From Deltaproteobacteria bacterium RIFOXYD12_FULL_55_16 (lineage in GTDB: Bacteria > Desulfobacterota > Desulfobulbia > Desulfobulbales > Desulfurivibrionaceae), in assembly GCA_001799255.1 (NCBI GenBank), contig MGTC01000043.1:1-40847 (forward strand): DNA of 40,847 nt, given 5' to 3'. The notes under the pieces are model-generated. The model was not told where the DNA came from. It ran no database searches and saw only the letters and a program-made list of their open reading frames with translations. Positions within the stretch are counted from its first letter, which is position 1. Each line of letters starts with the position of its first letter. Both the position numbers and the translations under genes were made by a program. Positions 3,897 through 4,416 of this stretch are shown here, piece after piece.

Positions 3897-3925
3897 TTGA
3901 CTTATGCGGGTATATTTCTTAATTT
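3897..3925 (+). promoter_or_regulatory. Candidate sigma70 promoter for the selenoprotein gene
   Basis: TTGACT at 3897-3902 and TAATTT at 3920-3925 are separated by 17 bases and lie about 95 bases upstream of the ATG at 4019. A palindrome, GCCTGA-A-TCAGGC, sits just upstream at 3860-3872. The boxes are only moderately close to consensus. Confidence 0.4.
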
Positions 3926-4018
3926 GTTTGATAAGAAAAGACTGAAATTACTTTTTTCTTACCGGTCTCTCAGCGCCGGATATTTTTTTTATGAACCTTT
4001 TGATGAGGAGATCACAGG

Positions 4019-4363
4019 ATGCTTGAAGTAACAGAGCAGGCGGTTGTCAAATTGAAAGCGTATCTGGCCGATAATAATATCGATTCTGCCGTACGTGTTG
4101 CCCTGATGCAGGGCGGTTGATCTGGGCCCTCTTTGGGATTGGCTCTGGATGAGCCAAAAGAAAATGATGCAACGTATGAACATGGTGGAATTAAATTCTT
4201 GCTGGATAATAATCTCAGCAATCAGTGTGGGGTCATCAAGGTAGACTTCATCGAGGCCGGGCCCCGTTCCGGTTTTGGGATCTCCTCGGCCAAGCCTCTC
4301 GGGGGCGGGGGCGGTGGAAGCTGTGGCAGTTCCTGCGGCAGCGGCGGTTCTTGCGGTTGCTGA
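4019..4363 (+). CDS. HesB/IscA-like selenoprotein (in-frame TGA read as selenocysteine, U34)
   Basis: A-type Fe-S carrier-like protein of 114 residues. Translation from the ATG at 4019 (strong GAGGAG, 8 bases upstream) runs 33 codons to TGA at 4118-4120 and continues in the same frame to a TGA stop at 4361-4363. Around the internal TGA the protein reads LMQGG-U-SGPSLGLALDEP. Homologues without Sec have Cys exactly there, the position equivalent to the first Fe-S ligand of IscA. A 7-bp hairpin lies 18 bases after the TGA (separate entry). The C-terminus is a Gly/Cys tail, SCGSSCGSGGSCGC. HesB-like selenoproteins are known from bacterial selenoproteome surveys. A gene caller that treats TGA as stop would give only the part from about 4133. 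It appears monocistronic, with a promoter candidate and terminator. Its client protein is unknown. Confidence 0.92.
4139..4157 (+). promoter_or_regulatory. Bacterial SECIS-like hairpin
   Basis: TTGGCTC (4139-4145) and GAGCCAA (4151-4157) form a perfect 7-bp stem around the 5-base loop TGGAT. The apical loop begins 25 bases after the TGA, and one of its first two bases is G. Both fit the usual rules for bacterial SECIS elements, which bind SelB and recruit Sec-tRNA. The hairpin lies within the coding sequence, as is normal in bacteria. Confidence 0.85.
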
Positions 4364-4386
4364 TGATATTGTTTTGAATTTGTTGC

Positions 4387-4416
4387 AAAAAACCCTGGTC
4401 TTGGCCGGGGTTTTTT
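4387..4416 (+). terminator. Rho-independent terminator after the selenoprotein gene
   Basis: Six A, then stem CCCTGG (4393-4398) pairing with CCGGGG (4405-4410, one U-G pair) around loop TCTTGG, then six T. It lies 24 bases after the stop at 4363 and upstream of amrA, which separates the two transcripts. Confidence 0.88.

Follow-up and report, generated by a model that had tools for sequence, protein, structure and literature searches.

A HesB-like gene of a Desulfobulbales-type anaerobe with an in-frame TGA predicted to encode selenocysteine

Is the TGA at codon 34 of a small IscA/HesB-like gene a stop, or is it read as selenocysteine, and what might a protein with selenium at this place do? 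The gene lies in the window (the whole 40,847-nucleotide stretch of DNA analysed here), where translation gives 114 codons on the forward strand (4019–4363) with the TGA at 4118–4120. The context of the codon is LMQGG-U-SGPSLG, the full product with the TGA read is MLEVTEQAVVKLKAYLADNNIDSAVRVALMQGG-U-SGPSLGLALDEPKENDATYEHGGIKFLLDNNLSNQCGVIKVDFIEAGPRSGFGISSAKPLGGGGGGSCGSSCGSGGSCGC, and tandem stops, TGA TGA, close the frame (4361–4366), the stop of the coding sequence being the first of them (4361–4363). The initial annotation had described a readable frame containing this TGA, and its coordinates, codon number and full length of 114 residues all proved correct. Codons 97–114 (4307–4360, forward strand) encode a tail rich in Gly, Ser and Cys, identified by alignment, with cysteines at 102, 106, 112 and 114; in relatives, Cys102 and Cys106 never vary and Cys112 hardly does. 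Cys70 is missing in the Desulfobacula group.

The same codon recurs among relatives. In the family sample of 27 genomes, 24 have a match above the NF038090 cut-off, and a copy from every one of these 24 contains exactly one in-frame TGA. Of the 247 genomes that make up the phylum sample, 124 gave a match at E <= 1e-12, with one TGA in most of the matches listed. Desulforhopalus and Desulfopila (L021-L023) have a cysteine codon (TGT or TGC) at the Sec position, as had been claimed for Cys-type homologues. Across the aligned homologues, codon 34 is TGA or Cys and never the true end of the protein; a real stop at this point, named at the outset as the finding that would speak against the reading, was not found. 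Among close relatives in the genus, the differences are mainly synonymous both before and after the TGA (in L009, for example, 17 synonymous changes versus 1 nonsynonymous change after it). A separate NF038090 match (G257:C66:233-529) has two TGA codons read through and could be either a member with two Sec residues or artefactual.

A hairpin with the stem TTGGCTC/GAGCCAA and the loop TGGAT is located at 4139–4157 (forward strand); it starts 18 nt past the TGA, its loop lies 25 nt past the TGA, and G occupies the second loop position. The rules for bacterial SECIS elements are an upper stem of 4–16 bp, a loop of 3–9 nt with G in the first two positions, 16–37 nt from UGA to loop, and a minimum free energy of <= -7.5 kcal/mol (PMC13188914). 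The perfect 7-bp hairpin with a loop G that had been noted is indeed present, at the spacing stated for it, and obeys these rules (7 bp, 5-nt loop UGGAU, 25 nt, -10.2 kcal/mol). In a single sequence, this is weak evidence, because a hairpin of at least 7 bp obeying the loop rules arises in 8.3% of synonymous recodings, our chance control, and a rule-obeying hairpin of at least 7 bp follows 11% of in-frame positions in the window genes; a 7-bp stem at exactly the SECIS site arises in 0.85% of recodings. Single-sequence folding is likewise not decisive alone, since over 51–84 nt there are competing folds and z runs from -2.1 to -0.35. The Rfam model SECIS_1 found no match in the genome itself and none in any of the control genomes, which makes its silence uninformative, and Rfam searches near the gene with E values allowed up to 10 returned chance-level matches only, all under gathering scores. 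The structure of SECIS elements varies among bacteria.

The comparison of many Sec genes is more informative than any single fold. Over 27 Sec genes near the window's (its own included), the synonymous identity of the hairpin codons 41–46 is 0.99, a value that no other six-codon stretch of the gene attains; it is 0.59 upstream of them and 0.56 downstream. Five to seven of the seven stem pairs are kept in 65 of 67 distinct Sec sequences, 66 of the 67 have UGGAU or UGGAC as their loop, and the position and size of the loop are constant in nearly every Sec form, in many families of the phylum. Only two or three pairs are kept in 13 of 16 Cys sequences. Two tandem Cys copies keep six pairs and are perhaps remnants of a Sec ancestor; a remnant of this kind has been reported for another HesB-like protein (PMC1794560). 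In 36 diverse Sec rows, picked for their variety, pairing holds in 86.9% of cells, whereas sliding the register by up to 3 columns gives 52.8% at best. In four of the pairs, both sides have changed. The double-changed cells number 8, versus 1.2 in shuffles with 0 of 500 as high, in a control that ignores relatedness. As a signature in aligned genes, we regard the comparative evidence for selection on the hairpin as decisive.

The same genome encodes tRNA-Sec with the anticodon TCA (71 bits), selB (354 bits), selA (612 bits) and selD (388 bits), and thus the genome search that the initial annotation had asked for found selA, selB, selC and selD all present; it had named absence of selB or selC as evidence against the reading. 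The selD gene (L048, G000:C57) has an in-frame TGA of its own near the N-terminus (TVKAAGUAAKLSPGDL), at the usual active-site position.

These observations allow two other readings of codon 34 to be judged. The TGA might genuinely end the protein, or it might reflect a sequencing error or a mutation in a pseudogene, with the downstream frame a mere remnant. In favour of this, table 11 formally lists TGA as a stop, and the draft assembly, in 90 contigs, is incomplete. However, independent assemblies from many genera and families carry the same TGA codon, change after it is mostly synonymous in the genus and the NF038090 model is matched over its full length, which leaves such an accident scarcely credible. 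Conservation of the frame by itself shows read-through alone, and the UGA could in principle be read other than as selenocysteine, by mis-reading as Trp or Cys or in a reassigned code. Against this stand the complete Sec machinery of the genome, the covarying hairpin in its fixed register, Cys at the Sec column in homologues and the fact that this gene itself terminates at a TGA; we consider it very improbable. The gene almost certainly encodes, on this body of sequence evidence, a HesB-like selenoprotein with selenocysteine at UGA-34.

The signals around the gene are consistent with its expression. The Shine-Dalgarno sequence claimed for it is seen as GAGGAG at 4005–4010 (forward strand), separated from the ATG by 8 nt; throughout the genus, AGGAGAT shows little or no variation. 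A probable sigma-70-type promoter, TTGACT-N17-TAATTT, spans 3897–3925 (forward strand), with boxes at 3897–3902 and 3920–3925 and a 17-nt spacer. In 16 upstream regions, TTG is invariant and TTGAC and TAA are nearly so, and this part of the earlier promoter claim holds; the consensus promoter scanner, by contrast, made no call at 3897–3925. Between promoter and gene, a scan located a terminator-like leader hairpin (CCGG..CCGG with a T run behind it, 3962–3990, forward strand). Fourteen sequences of the genus conserve this hairpin, though its loop varies, and it is a possible transcription attenuator. The terminator noted downstream is recognisable as the hairpin AAAACCC...GGGTTTT at 4387–4416 (forward strand), paired in the alignment and also present in L009 and L065.

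The gene is flanked by a divergently transcribed phosphofructokinase gene (PF00365, 2701–3792, reverse strand), a neighbour in most relatives, and by a downstream AMMECR1-domain gene (PF01871, 4497–5102, forward strand), also a conserved neighbour. As a hint of function, both were considered and set aside: they are conserved and say nothing clear on Fe-S delivery. In relatives, a small c-type-cytochrome-like gene lies on the minus strand between the selenoprotein gene and AMMECR1 (L009, 3403–3765, with a CLTCH motif; L065, about 1900–2260); it is absent from the window.

The product scores 142.1 bits with the NCBIfam model NF038090 (IscA_HesB_Se; cut-off 85), covering profile positions 1–99 of 101. 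The likeness to this subfamily is thus a full-length match, its Sec form is common across the phylum, and the window's member has no distinguishing feature. TIGR01911 (HesB_rel_seleno), which describes HesB-like selenoproteins of Methanococcus and bacteria, has the same fold family and the UxGP motif in common with it (UAGP/USGP here), a motif noted for HesB-like selenoproteins (PMC13188914, 2026); however, the window protein reaches 40.4 bits, below the cut-off of 66.35, and we therefore treat it as belonging to a sister subfamily. Its match to the A-type carrier model TIGR00049 is 49 bits with C for U and 41 bits as read from the DNA, under the cut-off of 58.8, and that to Pfam PF01521 is 25.6 bits, just under the cut-off of 26.3. 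The canonical C-terminal CGCGxSF is absent, and the tail SCGSSCGSGGSCGC stands in its place.

An AlphaFold model built from 29 relatives has a mean pLDDT of 79.7 with the tail disordered, and its best PDB matches are E. coli IscA and SufA (1r94, 1s98, 2d2a). The predicted fold is like that of these proteins, while identity is 24–26% and the window protein differs in its longer Gly/Ser/Cys tail and in having Sec in place of Cys. From the family alignment and what is known of IscA, Sec34 presumably takes the place of the first conserved cluster-ligand Cys. A canonical Cys A-type carrier from the window's genus (L077, CGCGQSF) shares the superfamily and is distant in the tree; no carrier of this kind was detected by a TIGR00049 profile search in the window's own draft genome. 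A PF01521 search of that genome also found no match, which we do not take as proof of absence because it missed the selenoprotein gene itself. The profile match and the model agree in describing the product as an IscA-fold, HesB-like protein of the NF038090 subfamily, from a Desulfobulbales-type anaerobe.

That HesB-like selenoproteins had been reported before, as the initial annotation stated, is borne out by the literature: they were described in 2005 (PMC1242214), 11 bacterial cases followed in 2006 (PMC1794560), and an NCBIfam model is named for them. PMC11097638 cites 75Se labelling of the M. maripaludis HesB-like protein. Since such proteins have been published since 2005–2006, the gene belongs to a kind already catalogued, of which it is a well-documented further member.

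We suggest that SelB with Sec-tRNA-Sec would bind the SECIS hairpin within the gene, just past UGA-34, and that selenocysteine would be inserted where IscA holds its first cluster-ligand cysteine. Sec34 together with Cys102 and Cys106 of the flexible tail, and usually Cys112, could then bind a labile Fe-S cluster, iron or another soft metal, which the protein may subsequently pass on; in an anaerobic and sulfide-rich setting, the selenolate, which is softer and a stronger nucleophile, would tune both binding and release. We favour the Fe-S carrier step, though with reserve. Nitrogen fixation persisted in the HesB-like mutant of M. maripaludis (PMC11097638), which thus offers no phenotype in support of a cargo. 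Because the protein is not one of the canonical carriers and its neighbours give no clue, there is room for a selenoprotein of another function, either selenol-based redox or the binding of soft metals such as mercury, arsenic or excess copper. The 41 bits to TIGR00049, the Gly/Cys-rich tail in place of CGCGxSF and the lack of an Fe-S link in phosphofructokinase and AMMECR1 fit such a function, and heavy-metal binding has been proposed for other prokaryotic selenoproteins (PMC13188914). On the other hand, the IscA fold, the position of Sec at an IscA ligand site and the absence of adjacent metal-resistance genes among the neighbours in the window argue against it, and we consider it the less likely function, if one to be taken seriously.

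Thirteen phylum genomes carry Sec and Cys copies of the gene as a same-strand tandem within about 1 kb; the sequences of both copies were read in eight of them (L102-L106 and L110-L112, from G152, G206, G123, G049, G247, G225, G111 and G268). In G268, the HesB-like gene is present three times. A tree of 77 rows, built on only 96 columns, needs nine changes between Sec and Cys, at least six of which are forced by well supported branches. We considered loss of Sec decoding as the origin of the Cys forms and rejected it, because selA persists in the Cys-form genomes tested.

The complement of A-type carriers varies among these organisms. The Sec gene is the sole TIGR00049-type match in six family genomes that are 85–100% complete (G001, G006, G007, G022, G023 and G025), and a canonical carrier is additionally present in nine genomes of the window's genus. 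The search for A-type-carrier-like genes in the window's own draft (85% complete, 90 contigs) found the Sec gene only. Elsewhere in several family genomes there is a Cys paralogue that has a similar Gly/Cys tail and carries SGCGC as an additional insertion (L080, L081); no copy of it was detected in the draft genome of the window. It is conceivable, if rather doubtful, that in part of the clade the selenoprotein is the cell's only A-type Fe-S carrier, which would make Fe-S delivery selenium-dependent, and that elsewhere the tandem Cys copy provides a selenium-free alternative.

The new leads are the tandem Sec/Cys pairs, the conserved leader hairpin and several near-complete genomes whose sole A-type-carrier-like match is the Sec gene. 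The analysis confirms the reality of such genes, which are prone to being split at the TGA, and supplies for the subfamily a SECIS model of fixed geometry backed by covariation. The tandem pairs and the genomes with a sole A-type gene are natural systems for learning what selenium contributes to an IscA-like protein.
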